Source of the DNA: Dehalococcoidia bacterium
GTDB taxonomy: Bacteria > Chloroflexota > Dehalococcoidia > Lucifugimonadales > SHYF01
DNA length: 22,664 nt
Assembly (NCBI GenBank): GCA_009692985.1
Contig: SHYF01000002.1
Location: forward strand, 1 to 22,664
Reading direction: 5' to 3'
A program made the position numbers and the translations under genes. Shown here one piece after another: positions 2,924-22,236 of the stretch (positions are counted from its first letter, which is position 1; every line of letters begins with the position of its first letter). The notes beneath the pieces are model-generated. The model had not been told where the DNA came from, did not search any database, and worked only from the letters and a program-made list of their open reading frames with translations.

Positions 2924-3020
2924 GACCATCCCCCTGGCCCCGTTCCTTGAAGGAAAGGGGTAAAGAAGAGAGAAGATATGGGGGGACGCCCCCCATTCCC
3001 ACCGTCCCTTCGGCTTCCCC
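2924..3020 (-). repeat. G-rich hairpin repeat, copy A (inverted orientation)
   Basis: Intergenic copy of the window-wide repeat family, reversed relative to the others. It holds a near-perfect hairpin at 2938-2960 and a perfect 8-bp stem with a 3-nt loop at 2978-2996 (ATGGGGGG / CCCCCCAT). Its outer parts, read on the minus strand, match the copy at 15441-15605: GGGAAGCCGAAGGG on one side and CAGGGGGATGGTC on the other. It fills the rplS-priA gap and could end rplS transcripts by structure, but no T-run follows either hairpin. Confidence 0.8.
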
Positions 3021-3077
3021 ACAACCACCAGCCTCGGCTATGATGGGCGCATGGTTCAGCCCCCATCGGAAGGCCGG

Positions 3078-5414
3078 ATGCCATTTGCCGAGGTTGCTGT
3101 GGACGCCCCTGTCCGAGACGGCCGGACATTCACCTACTCCATACCCACTCACCTGACGGTAGCGCCAGGCCAGATGGTGCAGGTACCCTTTGGGCCGCGC
3201 ATGGCAGACGGCGTTGTCTTCCAGCTTTCTCACACCACCAAGATTGACCTAGTTAGGCCAATTGAAGTGGCGGACCCCCTGGGGCTGCTGGTCTCGTCTC
3301 ATCACCTGGACCTGGCCAGATGGATCAGCGACTACTACATGGCCCCTCTCTACGCAGCCGTGGCGCTCATGCTGCCCCCTGGGTTTCGCAGCCGCACCGT
3401 GGTTTACTTGAAACGGCCCAGCGAAGAGGCCATAGCTTCCTTGGAAGCCGCTCTCCCGGCTAGCTTTCTCAGCCTGTTTTCGGCGAGCCGCCAGAGGGAA
3501 CGAGAGGAGCTTGTGCGCGGGAAGCTGGACCAGAAGGCCGGTAGAACCCTGGACAGGCTGATACGGAAGGGTGAAATAGCCCGGTCATGGGAGTGGCGCA
3601 TCCTCAAGGCCCAGCAGGGCCATGCCCCGCCTACGATAGAGGAGAACCCCGTAGCGGAGCCTGCTCTTACTCCTACCTCTCATCAGGCGCAATCGCTAGC
3701 CCAGATCGCCGCCGCCCTGGATGCCCGCGACCATGCCGCCTTTCTGCTCCAGGGCGTTACGGGCAGCGGCAAGACGGAGGTTTACATTCAATCCCTGTCC
3801 CGCTGCCTGGCCCAGGGCAGAAAGGGCATAGTTTTGGTGCCAGAGATATCCCTGACGCCCCAGATGGTGCAGCGGTTCGAGGCCCGTTTCCCTGGCAAAG
3901 TAGCGGTGCTGCACAGCCGCCTCTCTCCTGCAGACCACACGCGAATGTGGTGGGGACTCTTCCATGGCCGCTACGATGTAGCTATCGGCTCCCGCAGTGC
4001 CCTGTTTGCGCCGGTGCAACCCTTGGGGCTCATCGTCCTGGATGAGGAGCACGAGTGGACGTACAAGCAGGACGAACGAGAGCCTCGCTATCACGCCCGG
4101 GTGGTGGCGCTGCGCCTGGCCCAGCAGACCGACGCCGTGGTGGTGCTGGGCAGCGCCACGCCGGACGTGGTCACATACCACCATGCTCTGGCCGGCCAGA
4201 GCCTGCGCCTTCTTGAGCTACCATACCGTCTGGGAACCTCGGTTCCCGCCGGGGGTCTGGGGGTGTCCCCCAGATTCAATACTCCCCCTCTCCGTATCGG
4301 AGAGGGGGATATAGAGCCTGTCCTGAGCCTGCCGAAGGAGGGTGAGGTGAAGGCTCCTCTGGATAGTGAAGAGGGCGGCGAGCACCATCCCATGGCGCAG
4401 GTGCGCATCGTGGACATGCGCCAGGAGCTGAAGGATGGGAACCGCAGTGTCTTCAGCCGTCCCTTGCAGGAAGCCCTGAAGGAGACCGTCGGCAAGGGCG
4501 ACCAGGCCATCCTGTTCATCAACCGCCGCGGCGCCGCGGGCGTGGTGCAGTGTCGCGATTGCGGCCACGTGGTGCGGTGCCGCACTTGCGACATGCCGCT
4601 TGCATACCACACGGCACCGGAAAGGCTCCTCTGCCATCAGTGCAACCGCCGGTCGAAGATTCCCCAGGCGTGCCCCAACTGTCACAGCGCGAGGATACGA
4701 TACCTGGGCCTTGGCACACAGAAGCTCATGGGCGAGTTGGATGCCTTGCTTCCAAGTGTGACAACGTTGCGGTGGGACAGGGACGTGGCGGAGACAGACC
4801 GTGCCTCCAATACTGTGCTGGAGCGGTTTGCTCGCGGCGAGGCGCAGGTGTTGGTGGGCACGCAGATGGTGGCCAAGGGCCTGCACGTCCCATCCGTCAC
4901 CCTGGTGGGCGCGGTGCTGGCCGACATCGGACTCCACCTGCCCGACTTCCGTTCTGGCGAGCGCGTCTTCCAGCTCCTGTGCCAGGTTGCTGGACGCGCC
5001 GGACGCGGTGACCCTGGCGTCGCTATTGTCCAGACGTACCGGCCTGACCACTATGCCGTGGTGCTGGCGGCCCAGCAGGACTATCCCGCCTTCTACCGCC
5101 AGGAGGTGGCCTACCGCAGGGTGCAGCGGTTGCCTCCCTACGGCCGGCTTATCCGGCTCGTCTTTGCCCACATCAACGACGGAAGGTGTCAGGCAGAGGT
5201 GGAGCGCCTGGGCCGCGTCCTCCGCTACCAGCGCCAAGCGTGGGCCATGACCGAGGTGGATGTGATGGGGCCAGCGCCTGCGTATCCACCACGGCTGCGC
5301 GGCCGCTACCGGTGGCATATCCTGCTGCGCGGCCCCGATCCACGCCTTCTGCTGGACAAGGTGGAGCTATCTCAGGACTGGCTGGTGGACGTGGACCCAG
5401 CAAGCGTGCTGTGA
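3078..5414 (+). CDS. priA: Primosomal protein N' (replication restart helicase PriA)
   Basis: Superfamily 2 3'-5' DNA helicase that reloads the replisome at stalled forks; 778 residues from this start. Order: N-terminal 3'-end-binding domain (MPFAEVAVDAPVRDGRTFTY), Walker A GVTGSGKTEVY (Lys about 232), DEEH box (322-325), eight zinc-binding cysteines as four CxxC pairs (492-535), then a helicase C lobe with QVAGRAGRG. The ATG at 3078 is chosen because it aligns with the E. coli N-terminus and has GGAAGG just upstream; an in-frame ATG at 3051 would add nine residues. Unusual: residues about 385-441, between the ELPYR segment and the conserved VRIVDMR segment, include extra sequence encoded by a palindromic repeat. 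All helicase motifs remain intact. Confidence 0.96.
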   Translation: MPFAEVAVDAPVRDGRTFTYSIPTHLTVAPGQMVQVPFGPRMADGVVFQLSHTTKIDLVRPIEVADPLGLLVSSHHLDLARWISDYYMAPLYAAVALMLPPGFRSRTVVYLKRPSEEAIASLEAALPASFLSLFSASRQREREELVRGKLDQKAGRTLDRLIRKGEIARSWEWRILKAQQGHAPPTIEENPVAEPALTPTSHQAQSLAQIAAALDARDHAAFLLQGVTGSGKTEVYIQSLSRCLAQGRKGIVLVPEISLTPQMVQRFEARFPGKVAVLHSRLSPADHTRMWWGLFHGRYDVAIGSRSALFAPVQPLGLIVLDEEHEWTYKQDEREPRYHARVVALRLAQQTDAVVVLGSATPDVVTYHHALAGQSLRLLELPYRLGTSVPAGGLGVSPRFNTPPLRIGEGDIEPVLSLPKEGEVKAPLDSEEGGEHHPMAQVRIVDMRQELKDGNRSVFSRPLQEALKETVGKGDQAILFINRRGAAGVVQCRDCGHVVRCRTCDMPLAYHTAPERLLCHQCNRRSKIPQACPNCHSARIRYLGLGTQKLMGELDALLPSVTTLRWDRDVAETDRASNTVLERFARGEAQVLVGTQMVAKGLHVPSVTLVGAVLADIGLHLPDFRSGERVFQLLCQVAGRAGRGDPGVAIVQTYRPDHYAVVLAAQQDYPAFYRQEVAYRRVQRLPPYGRLIRLVFAHINDGRCQAEVERLGRVLRYQRQAWAMTEVDVMGPAPAYPPRLRGRYRWHILLRGPDPRLLLDKVELSQDWLVDVDPASVL
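4241..4355 (+). repeat. G-rich hairpin repeat, copy B, in frame inside priA
   Basis: Same family as the intergenic copies. It has a perfect 7-bp stem with TGT loop at 4257-4273 (CTGGGGG / CCCCCAG) and a perfect 11-bp stem with TAT loop at 4284-4308 (CCCCCTCTCCG / CGGAGAGGGGG). A GAGCCTGCCGAAGG motif follows near 4325, related to the GAGCTTGTCGAA motif at 10708. It is read through in the priA frame with no stop and encodes a Gly/Pro/Glu-rich segment. The insertion probably extends past the core, to about 4230-4400. Confidence 0.82.
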
Positions 5415-5449: not shown

Positions 5450-5548
5450 GGAGCCCCGAGGGGCCACGCCCCTCGGGAAGGGGTCGCCCAGGGGTAAACC
5501 CCTTGCCCCTTCTTCCGCATCGCGGGAGAAGGGGCAAGGGGGATGAGG
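5450..5548 (+). repeat. G-rich hairpin repeat, copy C
   Basis: Three hairpins in series in the priA-def gap. The first is a perfect 10-bp stem with CAC loop at 5455-5477. The second is a short GGGG-TAAA-CCCC at 5491-5502. The third is a 20-bp stem with a 3-nt loop and one G-T pair at 5499-5541. The third shares bases with the second, so they would be alternative folds. No T-run follows, so this is not a classical intrinsic terminator. Confidence 0.75.
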
Positions 5549-6230: not shown

Positions 6231-7733
6231 TTGAACGCTCTTTCCATGACCGCCATTGGCCCGTTGACTCCAAGGGTTGTCGCCTTCTTGCATCGGCTGC
6301 TGCCCATTCTGCCCGCCGAGCCTGAGCCTCACATGGTAGGCGGCTTCGTGCGCGATGCGCTGCTGGGTCGCGCTACTCGCGATATGGACATCACAGTCGG
6401 CGCTGATGCCGTTGCGGTGGCCCGGCGTATGGCCGATGCCCTGGGCGGCGCATTCGTCCTGCTGGACGAGCCGCGCAAGGTTGCCCGCGTGGTGGTGCAG
6501 GAAGGCGGAGAGACATGGCTTGTGGACGTGGCCTCTTTGCAGGGGGACCGCATGGAGGACTTGGCGCGCCGCGACTTCACCATTGACGCCATGAGCGTGC
6601 CTATCAAGGCGCTCGTGATGGATGAGTGGCAGGGGCACATCCTGGACCCCTTCGGCGGCAGGACAGACCTGGAAAGCGGTGTGATACGCGCTGTAAGCTC
6701 ACGAGTGTTCCAGGAGGACGGCCTGCGGCTGCTCCGCGCCGTCCGCCTCGCTGCATCCCTGGGATTCGACATCGAAGCAGGGACTCAGGACATGATACGC
6801 CGGGATGCAGGCGCCCTGGCGGGCGTCTCCGCCGAGCGGGTCCGCGACGAGTTCCTGGACATCCTGGCATCTGGCAAGGCGATGCGGCACGTATATCTCC
6901 TGGATGACCTCACCTTGCTTTGCCGGGTGGTGCCGGAGTTGGAGGAGGGCAGGGGGCTAACCCAGCCCAAAGAGCACTATTGGGACGTTCTACGCCATAA
7001 CATTGAGACCGTGGGAGTCGTGGAAGGTTTGCTGGAGCGCACCTGGGAGCCGGAGTGGGTGCTGGAAGCGATCCCCTGGGATGCAGCCCAGGCCGCTCGC
7101 TTCGAGGAGGTAGTGGGAGAGGGGCATACCCGTGGCACGTTTCTCAAGCTGGCGGGCCTTCTCCATGACATCGCCAAACCGGCAACCCGCACCGTGGATG
7201 AGGAAGGGCGAATACGGTTCAAGGGACACCAGAGCCAGGGCGCTACCACAGCCCAGGCAGTTCTAGGGCGGCTGCGACTGAGCCGGAGAACCATTGATAT
7301 GATTGCGGCGCAGATAGAGCACCATCTAAGGCCAGCCCAGATGAGCCAGGAGGCGGAGCTTGCCACGCCCAAGGCAGTGTACCGCTACTTCCGCAGTGCC
7401 GGCGACGTAGCCATAGATATCCTATACTTGAACCTGGCGGATTATCTGGCCGCTCGCGGGCCGCGCCTGGAGCGCGAGGAGTGGGCGGCCTACACTGCGA
7501 AGGTGCGGCATATAATGGTAACAGGCGCGGCCCAGGAACAGCCCATTCAAGCGCAGCCCCTGGTGGATGGCCATGCCCTTATGGGATACTTTCATCTGCC
7601 GCCTGGGCCGCTGGTGGGCCGGCTCCTGGAGGCGATTCGGGAGGCTCAGGCCACCGGAGAGGTGGCTACCAGGGAAGCGGCGCTGGCCCTGGTCAAGCAG
7701 ATGCTCTCTACTGAAAAAGGAGAAAGCGTGTAA
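6231..7733 (+). CDS. cca: tRNA nucleotidyltransferase (CCA-adding type, class II) with HD domain
   Basis: Adds or repairs the 3'-CCA end of tRNAs; 500 residues. The class II nucleotidyltransferase head shows GGFVRDALLGR (residue 37 on) and the catalytic DMD at 51-53. It is followed by RRDFTIDAM and EDGLRLLRAVRLAASLGF of the poly(A)/CCA polymerase family. An HD metal-dependent phosphohydrolase motif, LLHDIAKP, lies at 312-313. The start is uncertain: TTG at 6231, or ATG at 6246 giving MTAIGPLTP; neither has a strong Shine-Dalgarno. The stop overlaps the secD start by 1 bp (TAATG). A-adding or CC-adding specialisation cannot be excluded from sequence alone. Confidence 0.9.
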   Translation: MNALSMTAIGPLTPRVVAFLHRLLPILPAEPEPHMVGGFVRDALLGRATRDMDITVGADAVAVARRMADALGGAFVLLDEPRKVARVVVQEGGETWLVDVASLQGDRMEDLARRDFTIDAMSVPIKALVMDEWQGHILDPFGGRTDLESGVIRAVSSRVFQEDGLRLLRAVRLAASLGFDIEAGTQDMIRRDAGALAGVSAERVRDEFLDILASGKAMRHVYLLDDLTLLCRVVPELEEGRGLTQPKEHYWDVLRHNIETVGVVEGLLERTWEPEWVLEAIPWDAAQAARFEEVVGEGHTRGTFLKLAGLLHDIAKPATRTVDEEGRIRFKGHQSQGATTAQAVLGRLRLSRRTIDMIAAQIEHHLRPAQMSQEAELATPKAVYRYFRSAGDVAIDILYLNLADYLAARGPRLEREEWAAYTAKVRHIMVTGAAQEQPIQAQPLVDGHALMGYFHLPPGPLVGRLLEAIREAQATGEVATREAALALVKQMLSTEKGESV

Positions 7734-9649
7734 TGCGCAGAATAGGCTGGCCTCGCATCGTTCTGATACTTCTGGTGGTGGTGGTGTCGGTTGCCGCTCT
7801 GGCCTGGCAGTCCAAGGAAATGACCATTACTTTCCATGACCCTGTGAATGTGGATGACGTGCGCACGGTCCTAAGCGGCCTAGGAAAGACTGATGCCTTG
7901 GTGCAGAGCACCGGCGACCGTACTCTGACCGTGCAAGTAGGCACCTTGAAGGCGGAGCAAAAGGATGGACAGGGCAAGGTGACGCAGCCGGCGGAGCAGG
8001 ACACAATACGCCAGACATTGGAGGACAAGATCGGCAAAATCACTTCTGTTCAGGTGTCTAACATTTCTGCTTTTGACCTTCGCTTTCTGGGGCTGCGCCT
8101 TCAGCGTGGCAGCGACGCCGTCCTGGGAATGCGGCTTGGGCTCGATCTACAAGGAGGCGTCCATCTGCTATACCAGGCCAGGGGCAAGAAGGAGATGGCC
8201 ATTACCTTCGAGGGTGCTGTGAAAGAGGAAGACGTACGCTTGGTCCTGGCCGGTCTAGAGAAGTCCGACGCTGTGGTGAAGAGCACCGGTGAACGGACTC
8301 TGACAGTGCGGGTGAACACATTGAAACTGGAGCAGAAGGACGCACAGGGCAAAGTGACACAGCCTGCGGAGGAAGAGACGATACGCAAGTCATTGGAAGA
8401 GAAGGTAGGGAAGATCACATCTCTTCAAACGTCTGATATTCCCGCCGTCGTTACGCCGGACCAGATGGAGGGCGTGCTGAACATAATCACCAAGCGCATC
8501 AACCCCGTGGGCATCACCGAGCCGGTGATACAGCTCATGGACAACAACCGTATTCTGGTGCAACTGCCAGGCGTAAAAGACGTAGAGGAGGTCAAACAGC
8601 TCATTGGCCAGACGGCGCGTCTGGAGTTCAAAGAGCGCACATGTTTGACATCTGGATTCATGGTGCTGCTCAATGGTGAATCTGGTGATCTGTGCGACCT
8701 GCCGGAAAACCACCTGGATAAGGAAGTAAACCTCACGGGTGAGGACCTGACCCGGGCCTATCCCGGCACCGACCCGCAATCTGGGAAGCCCATCATCAAC
8801 GTAACGTTCAACTCCAGGGGAGCAGGCATATTCGGCGACATGAGCACTCGCTTGGCAGGCACGCCCCACCGATTTGCAGTCTTCCTGGACGAAGAGGAGA
8901 TAATGGCCCCGGTGTTCAGGGAGCCTATCCTTGGTGGCAGCGCTGTCGTGAGTGGCAGCTTCACGGCGGAGCGCGTTCGCACCATATCCATTCAGTTGGA
9001 GTCAGGCCGTCTGCCCATCCCCATAGAGGTCGTCCAGGAGAGCAGTGTTGACGCTTCTCTGGGCGCGGAGTCTCTTCGCAAAAGCCTGATTGCTGGCGTA
9101 GCGGGTCTGGGGCTGGTGCTGTTGTTCATGGTCATGTACTACAAGGCACCTGGCCTGGTGGCCGCTATGGCGCTGGCCATCTATACTGTGGCGCTGCTGG
9201 CCATATTCAAGCTGGTGCCCATAACACTTACCCTGGCCGGTGTAGCTGCCTTTATCCTGTCCATAGGCATGGCTGTGGACGCCAACGTTCTCATATTTGA
9301 AAGAATGAAGGAGGAGTTGCGCCTGGGCGGGACACTGGCCTCGGCCATCGAGATAGGCTTCAACCGGGCGTGGACTTCCATCCGTGATAGCAACGCGTCC
9401 ACCCTTATCACCTGCGTCATCCTGTTCTGGTTTGGGCAGCGCTTGGGCGCAAGTCTGGTAGCTGGTTTTGCCAGCGCATTGGCCATTGGCGTTGTGCTTA
9501 GCATGTTCAGCGCCATCATTGTCAGTAAGACTATTCTCAACCTGTTTAGCATCACTCCCTTGGGCAACCGGCGGTCCTGGTTCACCCCAGAACATCTGCC
9601 CGCTGCCCTGCGGACCGCCTCAACTGGTGTGGTCAGGGGTAAGGAGTAA
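7733..9649 (+). CDS. secD: Protein translocase subunit SecD with duplicated periplasmic module
   Basis: Membrane component of the SecDF complex that uses the proton gradient to help pull proteins through SecYEG; 638 residues. Transmembrane segment 1 is at about residues 7-24. The conserved LGLDLQGGVHLLYQA motif is at about 135-149. The head domain (MEGVLNIITKRINPVGITEPVIQ) follows, with five more membrane segments in the C-terminal third, including FILSIGMAVDANVLIFERMKEE. Two homologous 84-residue modules lie at 28-111 and 153-236, the second between LDLQGG and the head. The ATG overlaps the cca stop and has AGGAG 10 nt upstream. secF follows after 3 bp. Confidence 0.95.
   Translation: MRRIGWPRIVLILLVVVVSVAALAWQSKEMTITFHDPVNVDDVRTVLSGLGKTDALVQSTGDRTLTVQVGTLKAEQKDGQGKVTQPAEQDTIRQTLEDKIGKITSVQVSNISAFDLRFLGLRLQRGSDAVLGMRLGLDLQGGVHLLYQARGKKEMAITFEGAVKEEDVRLVLAGLEKSDAVVKSTGERTLTVRVNTLKLEQKDAQGKVTQPAEEETIRKSLEEKVGKITSLQTSDIPAVVTPDQMEGVLNIITKRINPVGITEPVIQLMDNNRILVQLPGVKDVEEVKQLIGQTARLEFKERTCLTSGFMVLLNGESGDLCDLPENHLDKEVNLTGEDLTRAYPGTDPQSGKPIINVTFNSRGAGIFGDMSTRLAGTPHRFAVFLDEEEIMAPVFREPILGGSAVVSGSFTAERVRTISIQLESGRLPIPIEVVQESSVDASLGAESLRKSLIAGVAGLGLVLLFMVMYYKAPGLVAAMALAIYTVALLAIFKLVPITLTLAGVAAFILSIGMAVDANVLIFERMKEELRLGGTLASAIEIGFNRAWTSIRDSNASTLITCVILFWFGQRLGASLVAGFASALAIGVVLSMFSAIIVSKTILNLFSITPLGNRRSWFTPEHLPAALRTASTGVVRGKE
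7814..8440 (+). repeat. Intragenic duplication in secD (two 84-codon modules)
   Basis: Module 1 is 7814-8065 and module 2 is 8189-8440, with 123 bp of conserved SecD sequence between them. By my count 57 of 84 residues are identical with no gaps, and the nucleotide sequences are also clearly alike (both contain a LTV-(Q/R)-V-x-TLK stretch and GKVTQPAE). The spacing shows this is not a simple tandem copy: the second lies at the site between the LDLQGG motif and the first head helix. Confidence 0.88.
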
Positions 9650-12222: not shown

Positions 12223-12268
12223 TTGCGCAAAAACTACCTACCTATATATTTGTTGTGCTTTGGCCTTA

Positions 12269-12390
12269 GGGAGTCCAGAGGGGCGAAGCCCCTTTGGCAG
12301 GGGCTAGGGGGTGTCCCCCAAATCTAAGTTTCTTCCCCCTCTCCCGCCCGAGGCGGGAGAGGGGGATACAGGGGGTGAGGGTGTTCCTAA
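12269..12390 (+). repeat. G-rich hairpin repeat, copy E2 (most complete)
   Basis: The clearest full-length member. Hairpin 1 is at 12275-12297 (10-bp stem, one mismatch, GAA loop). Hairpin 2 is at 12307-12319 (GGGGG, TGT, CCCCC). Hairpin 3 is at 12335-12365 (perfect 14-bp stem, CGA loop). The tail is GATACAGGGGGTGAGGG. It sits between convergent genes and ends about 7 bp before the alcohol dehydrogenase stop. It might serve both genes as a bidirectional transcript end, but has no T-run. Confidence 0.85.
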
Positions 12391-13644: not shown

Positions 13645-13690
13645 TTCTACGAAATCCGTAAGCGCTCTTACGCCAGGCTCTAAGGCTCTC
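13645..13690 (+). repeat. 46-nt dispersed repeat, copy 2
   Basis: Partner of 2273-2318. Here the structure is stronger: GATTTC-TAC-GAAATC (starting at 13642) is followed directly by CGTAAG-CGCT-CTTACG, giving two adjacent small hairpins, and then GGCTCTAAGGCTCTC with a repeated GGCTCT. It ends 4 bp before the TTGACA of the next promoter, so it could influence that promoter. Confidence 0.6.
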
Positions 13691-15423: not shown

Positions 15424-15440
15424 CACGCTGCTGAGAAGGA

Positions 15441-15605
15441 GGAGTCCAGAGTGGCAAAGCCCTGGAGCCTGCCCTGAGTGAGCCGAAGCCCTGAGCGAAG
15501 CGAATGGGGAAGCCGAAGGGGTGGGGGTCTGGGGGTACCCCCCAGATTTATTTTCTACCCCCTTCCTGGCAGGAAGGGGGTCAGGGGGATGGTCGAAAGG
15601 GTTCT
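15441..15605 (+). repeat. G-rich hairpin repeat, copy F, with nested 55-nt segment
   Basis: Starts GAGTCCAG with a degenerate first hairpin. It then carries a 55-nt segment (15466-15520) shared, in reverse, with 10616-10670. Hairpin 2 is at 15528-15546 (TCTGGGGG / CCCCCAGA, perfect 8 bp). Hairpin 3 is at 15558-15580 (CCCCCTTCCT / AGGAAGGGGG, perfect 10 bp). The tail TCAGGGGGATGGTCGAA matches copy A and resembles copy G. Confidence 0.85.
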
Positions 15606-15735
15606 TCAGTAGCCTGCTAGTGCCGTTGGCTGCCAGCACCCCAACGGGAACCAGCATACACTTTGACTTGTGCCAGCAAATCTCCACCACGTATACTGGA
15701 CTCCACAAACCGGCCAAGAAAAAGGTGGTCGTACC

Positions 15736-22136: not shown

Positions 22137-22155
22137 CAGGTTGCTCAAGAACTTG

Positions 22156-22236
22156 CCGGGGGTTTGGGGGTGTCCCCCAACTCTCTTCTCTCCCCCCCCT
22201 TCCTCGAAGGAAGGGGGGGGGATGGTCGAAGGAGTT
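22156..22236 (+). repeat. G-rich hairpin repeat, copy G, between nuoF and nuoG
   Basis: Hairpin 2 is at 22164-22180 (TTGGGGG, TGT, CCCCCAA, perfect 7 bp). Hairpin 3 is at 22192-22220 (perfect 13-bp stem, CGA loop). The tail GGATGGTCGAAGGAGTTATT parallels GGATGGTCGAAAGGGTTCTT of copy F. The first hairpin is absent. It interrupts what should be an operon. Confidence 0.85.

Follow-up and report, generated by a model that had tools for sequence, protein, structure and literature searches.

A truncated copy of a 144-bp MITE translated in frame within the PriA helicase of a Dehalococcoidia bacterium

The segment at positions 4232 to 4364 of the window (the whole stretch of 22,664 nt analysed, which belongs to contig C2 of a 1.3-Mb assembly that is 71% complete) was confirmed to be a truncated copy of a multi-copy repeat lying in frame within the priA gene. 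The repeat is a MITE, as it is short, present in many copies and without a transposase gene of its own, and has inverted ends and 9-bp target duplications. The history that we consider most probable, at about 0.92, is that such an element was inserted into the priA linker with the reading frame kept, and that its ends were then lost while a loop remained in the protein. The best-known palindromic insertions of this in-frame kind are those of Rickettsia. Here, one family in the Chloroflexota shows most of the path, namely the ends of the element, its target duplication, sites without it in relatives, a length that preserves the frame and trimmed copies in conserved proteins, and this makes the route from mobile DNA to protein sequence testable. 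Among the matches listed from the open-licence literature, titles and the beginnings of abstracts mentioned no such element in Chloroflexota or in PriA.

The insert in priA

The priA gene (positions 3051 to 5414, forward strand) encodes the primosomal helicase N' of 787 aa, identified from the open reading frame, from Pfam domains and from PriA structures that match by both sequence and fold. The two named relatives nearest to this protein are from Chloroflexota and Dehalococcoidia, and similar loci come from assemblies of these groups; many of the genomes compared are metagenome assemblies. The reading frame from 3051 to 5414 is uninterrupted across the repeat segment, and PriA_3primeBD, DEAD, Helicase_C and PriA_C, which lie on both sides of the insert, all scored above the Pfam cut-offs, in agreement with the earlier note, which had the repeat translated in frame inside PriA. 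That note also held the helicase and zinc motifs to be intact; the zinc-ribbon model scored 23.5, its cut-off being 26.

The MITE-derived insert (4232 to 4355, forward strand) is trimmed at its left end, appears from comparison with other copies to be 15 nt shorter at its right end, and includes a REP-like module. Its extent was set using the better repeat matches within its own genome, which begin at 4232, its absence from the PriA of a second genome (G001), and a consensus of 25 copies. Three perfect hairpins were found on the forward strand, GGGAACC/GGTTCCC with a 7-bp stem (4232 to 4247), TCTGGGGG/CCCCCAGA of 8 bp, the centre of which is common to several related repeats (4256 to 4274), and TCCCCCTCTCCG/CGGAGAGGGGGA of 12 bp (4283 to 4309); the two perfect hairpins previously described at 4257 to 4308 are hence perfect but too few by one. 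The REP-like module (approximately 4314 to 4340, forward strand), delimited by alignment, adds a net 24 nt and is also present in some other MITE copies as a 168-bp variant. It is followed on the same strand by the shortened right end, GGTGAGGTGAAGGCT (4341 to 4355), where other copies have AAGGACTTTTG(A/G)GACAAGGC ahead of the target duplication, and by CCTCTGGAT (4356 to 4364), which from the position of the element ends would be the right copy of a 9-bp target duplication, the left copy having been lost or altered. The mobility proposed for the repeat is supported by close relatives that lack the insert and by a family with inverted ends and target duplications of 9 bp; the window copy itself is trimmed and has lost its terminal repeats.

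The predicted RNA fold of positions 4232 to 4309 has an energy of -52.9 kcal/mol, compared with a mean of -29.4 (SD 3.2; lowest -39.2) for 300 mononucleotide shuffles. A BLAST search of the window genome (G000) using positions 4228 to 4402 gave 68 matches, a number that includes the window itself, palindromic matches on the opposite strand and many short matches, and the best non-self copy had an E value of 1.2e-42. No match was found in the window using Rfam at gathering scores.

The length between the LGSATP and FSRPL motifs was compared in the window protein (P0001) and its five closest PriA relatives, and was 107 residues in P0001, 116 in P0002, 64 in P0003, P0004 and P0006, and 63 in P0005. 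The insert is therefore present in P0001 and P0002 and missing from four of the five relatives, and no conserved segment of equal length was found in them. However, P0005 is the same protein as the PriA of G001, which belongs to the same genus as the window genome, and is not an independent empty site; in the G001 priA gene the insert is absent and the aligned region is shorter by 132 nt. The extra length in the window protein is 43 to 44 residues relative to P0003 to P0006, somewhat less than the 45 to 50 first estimated. When proteins of 0.55 to 1.75 times the length of PriA were searched for the segment, it was found in P0001 and P0002 only (2 of 36 candidates). Across 60 PriA proteins the same interval ranges from 59 to 128 residues and, by eye, P0002 alone of the other 59 carries the insert; P0017, P0047, P0008, P0012 and others also have long linkers.

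A different palindromic REP-like repeat was observed in frame in the same linker of a PriA from another family (G036; locus L004, about 1125 to 1226), and seven more copies of it, 86–98% identical, are present in that genome. The PriA inter-lobe linker is thus a site that has taken up palindromic repeats more than once.

In a predicted model of the window PriA (overall pLDDT 84.3, pTM 0.86), residues 397 to 442 have pLDDT values below 50 and lie between strands at 386 to 390 and 450 to 455. The model shows the insert as a disordered loop, placed between the two lobes of the helicase, consistent with the surface loop suggested in the earlier note.

The repeat family and a candidate transposase

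The element consensus, built from 25 copies with a mean pairwise identity of 0.876, is 144 bp long, and 82 merged copies or fragments were found in the examined loci of G000 and G001. Terminal inverted repeats of ~18 bp are present, with both ends reading approximately (G/A)GC(G/C)TTGTCTCAAAAGTC in end-to-end copies; the ends begin GGC(G/C/T)TTGT, or more fully are GGC(G/C/T)TTG(T/C)CTCAAAAGTC-like. In the 30 end-to-end copies from the examined loci of the two genomes, the length was exactly 144 bp in 22 and divisible by three in 25. The 9-mers flanking the two ends matched at 8 or more of 9 positions in 17 of 30 own pairs but in only 3 of 870 cross pairs, and mean flank identity was 0.77 at a length of 9 versus 0.22–0.34 at lengths of 5 to 8 and 10 to 12. 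Both L184 and L190, which have identical flanks and may be one locus, were counted in this test.

As 144 bp plus a 9-bp duplication is 153 nt, or 51 codons, a full insertion leaves the downstream frame unshifted, a property that could be luck, at one in three. Among 24 copies, frame -1 is open in 20, frame +1 in 17 and frame +0 in 13, and the frame +0 translation of the consensus is GVVSKVRKAQGTSVPAGGLGVSPRFKTPPLRRGEGDTGGEVKDFWDKA. The right end occurs in two variants, TTTTGA, which places a TGA stop in frame +0, and TTTTGG; TGA is the variant in 14 of the 26 ends kept in G000 and in 2 of 30 in G001.

A 145-base copy used as query matched 17 of the 59 genomes searched in the order, and among the matches listed those outside G000, G001, G029 and G058 were partial only. 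The end motif was present in 14 of 250 genomes from the same order, with counts above two only in G000, G001 and G029. Exchange of halves was also seen, since among 11 copies displayed, those read join one half to a different left or right half.

Five further relatives of the repeat lie outside large open reading frames in the window (2924 to 3020, 5450 to 5545, 12268 to 12380, 15430 to 15625 and 22137 to 22235). These have the central hairpin or the neighbouring palindromes in common with the insert and have different ends, one set being TAGCAGGCTGCTGAAAAAGG-like. Two repeats of other kinds were also noted in the window. A 46-nt repeat (2273 to 2318 and 13645 to 13690; TTCTACGAAATCCGTAA...) is 85% identical between its copies and has no obvious likeness to the MITE. 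A 257-nt direct repeat (7814 to 8070 and 8189 to 8445), 74% identical, is an internal protein duplication within a 638-aa open reading frame (7733 to 9649), presumably SecD.

Relatives of a DDE transposase were found in 6 of 59 genomes, 5 of which belong to the 17 genomes that the repeat matched (p 0.006), many of these matches being partial. Those of G029 and G001 include a SWIM finger and a DDE domain and are most similar to an IS5 family model, though below its cut-off. The genes in G029 (L303, 573 to 1856), G001 (L304/L310) and G026 (L312) each have a GGC(T/C)TTGC end immediately behind them, on the opposite strand. In G029 the sequence after the stop codon is the reverse complement of GGCTTTGCTCCAAAAGTC, which is similar to the MITE end; no left end was found, and at the same position after the stop G001 has GGCCTTGC and G026 has GGCTTTGC. 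These DDE relatives are a lead as the candidate mover of the MITE. The incomplete G000 assembly gave no match to this transposase. The PF13737 profile gave no matches, its 14 controls being likewise silent, and PF01609 matched once each in G000 and G001, in genes that do not have matching ends on both sides. A search for an autonomous element, using pairs of ends 450 to 3500 bp apart, returned nine rows (some from the same locus) among the loci from L141 onward, and no transposase was recognised in the open reading frames listed.

Copies in other genes and the shortened right end

Among the 82 merged copies or fragments from the two genomes, a frame-blind scan identified 12 that lie within stop-to-stop frames of at least 200 residues with at least 30 codons on each side. 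Four were taken, with the aid of Pfam, as genuine internal insertions, in PriA, an FAD-oxidase/Fe-S protein, a DUF2851 protein and a Ham1 protein. The other eight were judged by eye, homology not being used, to be intergenic, upstream or antisense.

In the FAD/Fe-S protein (G000:C34) the MITE is in frame and has lost both of its ends; the corresponding linker is short in G035, G025, G038 and G024, and G001 has a different linker sequence. The DUF2851 protein encoded by G001:C147 carries the MITE and its orthologue in G000:C92 is empty. The Ham1-family gene (L182, 1621 to 2397; G001:C89:4973-5749), which is on the same contig as the G001 priA gene, also carries it, and the site is empty in G000, G038, G013 and G010. 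Between the two genomes, PriA is therefore occupied in G000 and not in G001, and the DUF2851 and Ham1 proteins are occupied in G001 and not in G000.

A peptide search starting from the DUF2851 protein retained 2 of 23 candidates, namely P0121, another DUF2851 protein, and P0122, which is a histidine kinase. The encoded peptide that the earlier note proposed to look for in other proteins is thus present, by scan or peptide search, in FAD/Fe-S, DUF2851, Ham1 and histidine kinase proteins, and all five protein families, PriA included, carry the MITE in the same frame. All four cases from the frame-blind scan are in frame +0, though frames -1 and +1 are more often open; by a hand calculation the chance of four cases agreeing on one frame is about 0.03, which is only suggestive. 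As P0121 and P0122 were found with the frame +0 peptide, they were excluded from this count. In G029, G058, G024 and G038, 43 copies or fragments in 34 loci included four in frames above 180 aa, none of which was judged by eye to be a real gene. An element fragment was also observed in G001:C32 (L258, around 2013 to 2089) soon after a possible start, MALTLAEAAKLSTPAI, which we take to be phage-capsid-like; the frame continues into other repeats and the gene is probably broken.

The right end of the window copy is GAGGTGAAGGCT whereas other copies have GAGGTCAAGGACTTTTG(A/G)GACAAGGC, and 15 nt (five codons) are gone from between two AAGG repeats. An identical loss was found in the Ham1 copy. 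In the examined loci of G000 and G001, 56 distinct right ends retain these 15 nt, including that of the coding DUF2851 copy, and exactly this stretch was lost in PriA and Ham1 only. The deletion is present in 2 of 4 coding copies versus 0 of 55 others (Fisher p 0.0035), in a post hoc test with just four coding copies. At the protein level P0002 also fits the shorter form, as its 43 element codons equal the 48 of a full element minus 5. The window protein has 17 residues fewer than P0002 on the left and 8 more in the middle of the insert, where the REP-like module lies, and 67-17+8 gives the 58 residues observed between R and Q.

The deletion would take out the TGA of frame +0 if the copy had one. 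Removal of a stop as the motive fits PriA moderately, given 14 of 26 G000 ends with TGA, and fits Ham1 poorly, as 28 of 30 G001 ends are TGG. It is unproven because TGA is common in G000 but rare in G001, the genome with the Ham1 insertion. A simpler account, common to both genes, is slippage between the AAGG repeats by which the mobile end was lost.

By back-translation only, P0002 gives a weak indication of a target duplication, read as P-Q-N / P-L-(G/D). This replaced a first candidate, the codons R-L-G, as it adjoins the element and leaves no P0002 residues unexplained.

History of the insertion and related elements

The favoured history would begin with entry of the 144-bp non-autonomous transposon into the inter-lobe linker of priA and duplication of 9 bp. 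The downstream PriA frame would have been kept, as 144+9 is divisible by three and the element can land in an open frame. An in-frame deletion of 15 nt between the right-end AAGG repeats would have followed, removing a TGA if one was present, and in the window genome the left end would subsequently have been lost by a further in-frame deletion, in a copy that carries the REP-like module. What remains would be a disordered loop that the helicase tolerates, possibly a neutral one, and a copy without ends is probably immobile. Against this account, the window copy no longer has an intact target duplication on its left. A stronger version, in which the MITE is adapted to intragenic life through its frame-keeping length, one usable frame and a right-end direct repeat for shedding the end and any stop, leaving a fixed harmless loop, appears unlikely.

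It is most improbable that the segment is instead an old domain of the PriA linker, palindromic by chance and lost in relatives. The variable linker length, 59 to 128 residues among 60 proteins, would suit such a domain, but its DNA is a multi-copy genomic repeat with defined ends, and the segment is missing from P0003 to P0006, the peptide search having recovered P0001 and P0002 alone. We also give little credence to a decaying or misassembled PriA in a cell relying on another copy. A second priA could lie in the missing part of an assembly that is 71% complete; however, P0002, a separate record, is a full-length PriA with the insertion, the structure model is of good confidence everywhere except in the insert, and residues invariant in 52 PriA proteins are retained, though this retention follows from how the alignment was built.

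Whether P0001 and P0002 descend from one insertion or two bears on the same history. Trees from which the linker was left out join P0001 to P0003 and P0004 (100/99) and place P0002 outside; forcing P0001 and P0002 together, a constraint chosen because of the insert, costs 50 log-likelihood units (p-AU 0.0004). Independent hits on the two linkers by MITE variants with and without the REP-like module, each then losing the same 15 nt, would accommodate this non-sister placement and the different variants carried, and the recurrence of the 15-nt deletion in Ham1 indicates that it is repeatable. Yet the insert is at the same place with the same right junction, KA-PL(D/G)-SEEGG, in both proteins, and the residue arithmetic allows P0001 to arise from a state like that of P0002 through a single in-frame deletion and a single change of module. 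Two insertions are the less probable reading. The position and junction common to both proteins point to a single event followed by recombination or loss, and the differing variants and the repeated deletion make two events conceivable. The single insertion, which we regard as reasonably probable, would have reached non-sister species when the priA linker recombined locally, or have been lost in P0003 to P0005 and perhaps others, and the core would have changed later, perhaps through gene conversion from another copy. An element of this type is unlikely to be lost precisely and repeatedly, which counts against the second of these routes. At 40 informative sites, 35 place P0001 with P0003/P0004, and 396, 399, 448, 585 and 588 place it with P0002. 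Sites 396, 399 and 448 are within or beside the insert, in favour of one insertion, but 396 and 399 are in poorly aligned linker, P0006 also has the state at 448, and 585 and 588 are further P0002-like sites.

In-frame MITEs are already known from RPE, ERIC and QMITE elements, according to the parts available of the sources (PMC10969869, PMC2229807, PMC5896051). The Rickettsia palindromic elements (RPEs) are palindromic repeats of 105–146 bp found in frame in many unrelated proteins (PMC2229807, PMC10969869) and encode conserved peptides (PMC10969869), and an RPE-bearing guanylate kinase is active (PMC2229807), as given in the portions of these papers at hand. The parallel with RPEs drawn in the earlier note is upheld, in that one palindromic repeat encodes the same peptide within proteins unrelated to each other, four found by the frame-blind scan and P0122 by peptide search. 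Unlike RPEs, the host is not Rickettsia and belongs to a different phylum, and the target duplication here is 9 bp, compared with an entry of unknown in Table 1 of PMC2229807, part of which was available; set against RPEs, 4 of 82 copies or fragments are taken as gene-internal here. By analogy, the element appears to work like an RPE but is a separate MITE family, RPEs being compared by description and not by sequence.

ISAba12-type elements, presumably of the IS5/IS903 group, offer a comparison for the ends. In the available parts of PMC6382973, MITEAba12 is mostly 113 bp, has consensus stops in all six frames and occurs in Acinetobacter and Moraxella, and the ends of the MITEAba12/ISAba12 group start GGCTTTGT and produce 9-bp duplications (Table 2). 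The GGC(G/C/T)TTGT ends and 9-bp duplication found here resemble this type as so described, and the 144-bp length and Dehalococcoidia host differ from MITEAba12. Coxiella QMITE1 and QMITE2 are fused in frame with genes, some copies being in the middle of hypothetical ORFs, and insertions in annotated functional genes are at 3' ends (PMC5896051, available sections); ERIC and RU-1 are likewise MITEs fused in frame with genes (PMC2229807, available sections). Unlike QMITE as represented there, the inserts here are internal in conserved protein families. REP elements are described in the accessible part of PMC3733652 as short palindromic repeats, which the REP-like pieces in the window copy and in the G036 PriA resemble, and by that description the main element differs in having terminal repeats and target duplications.
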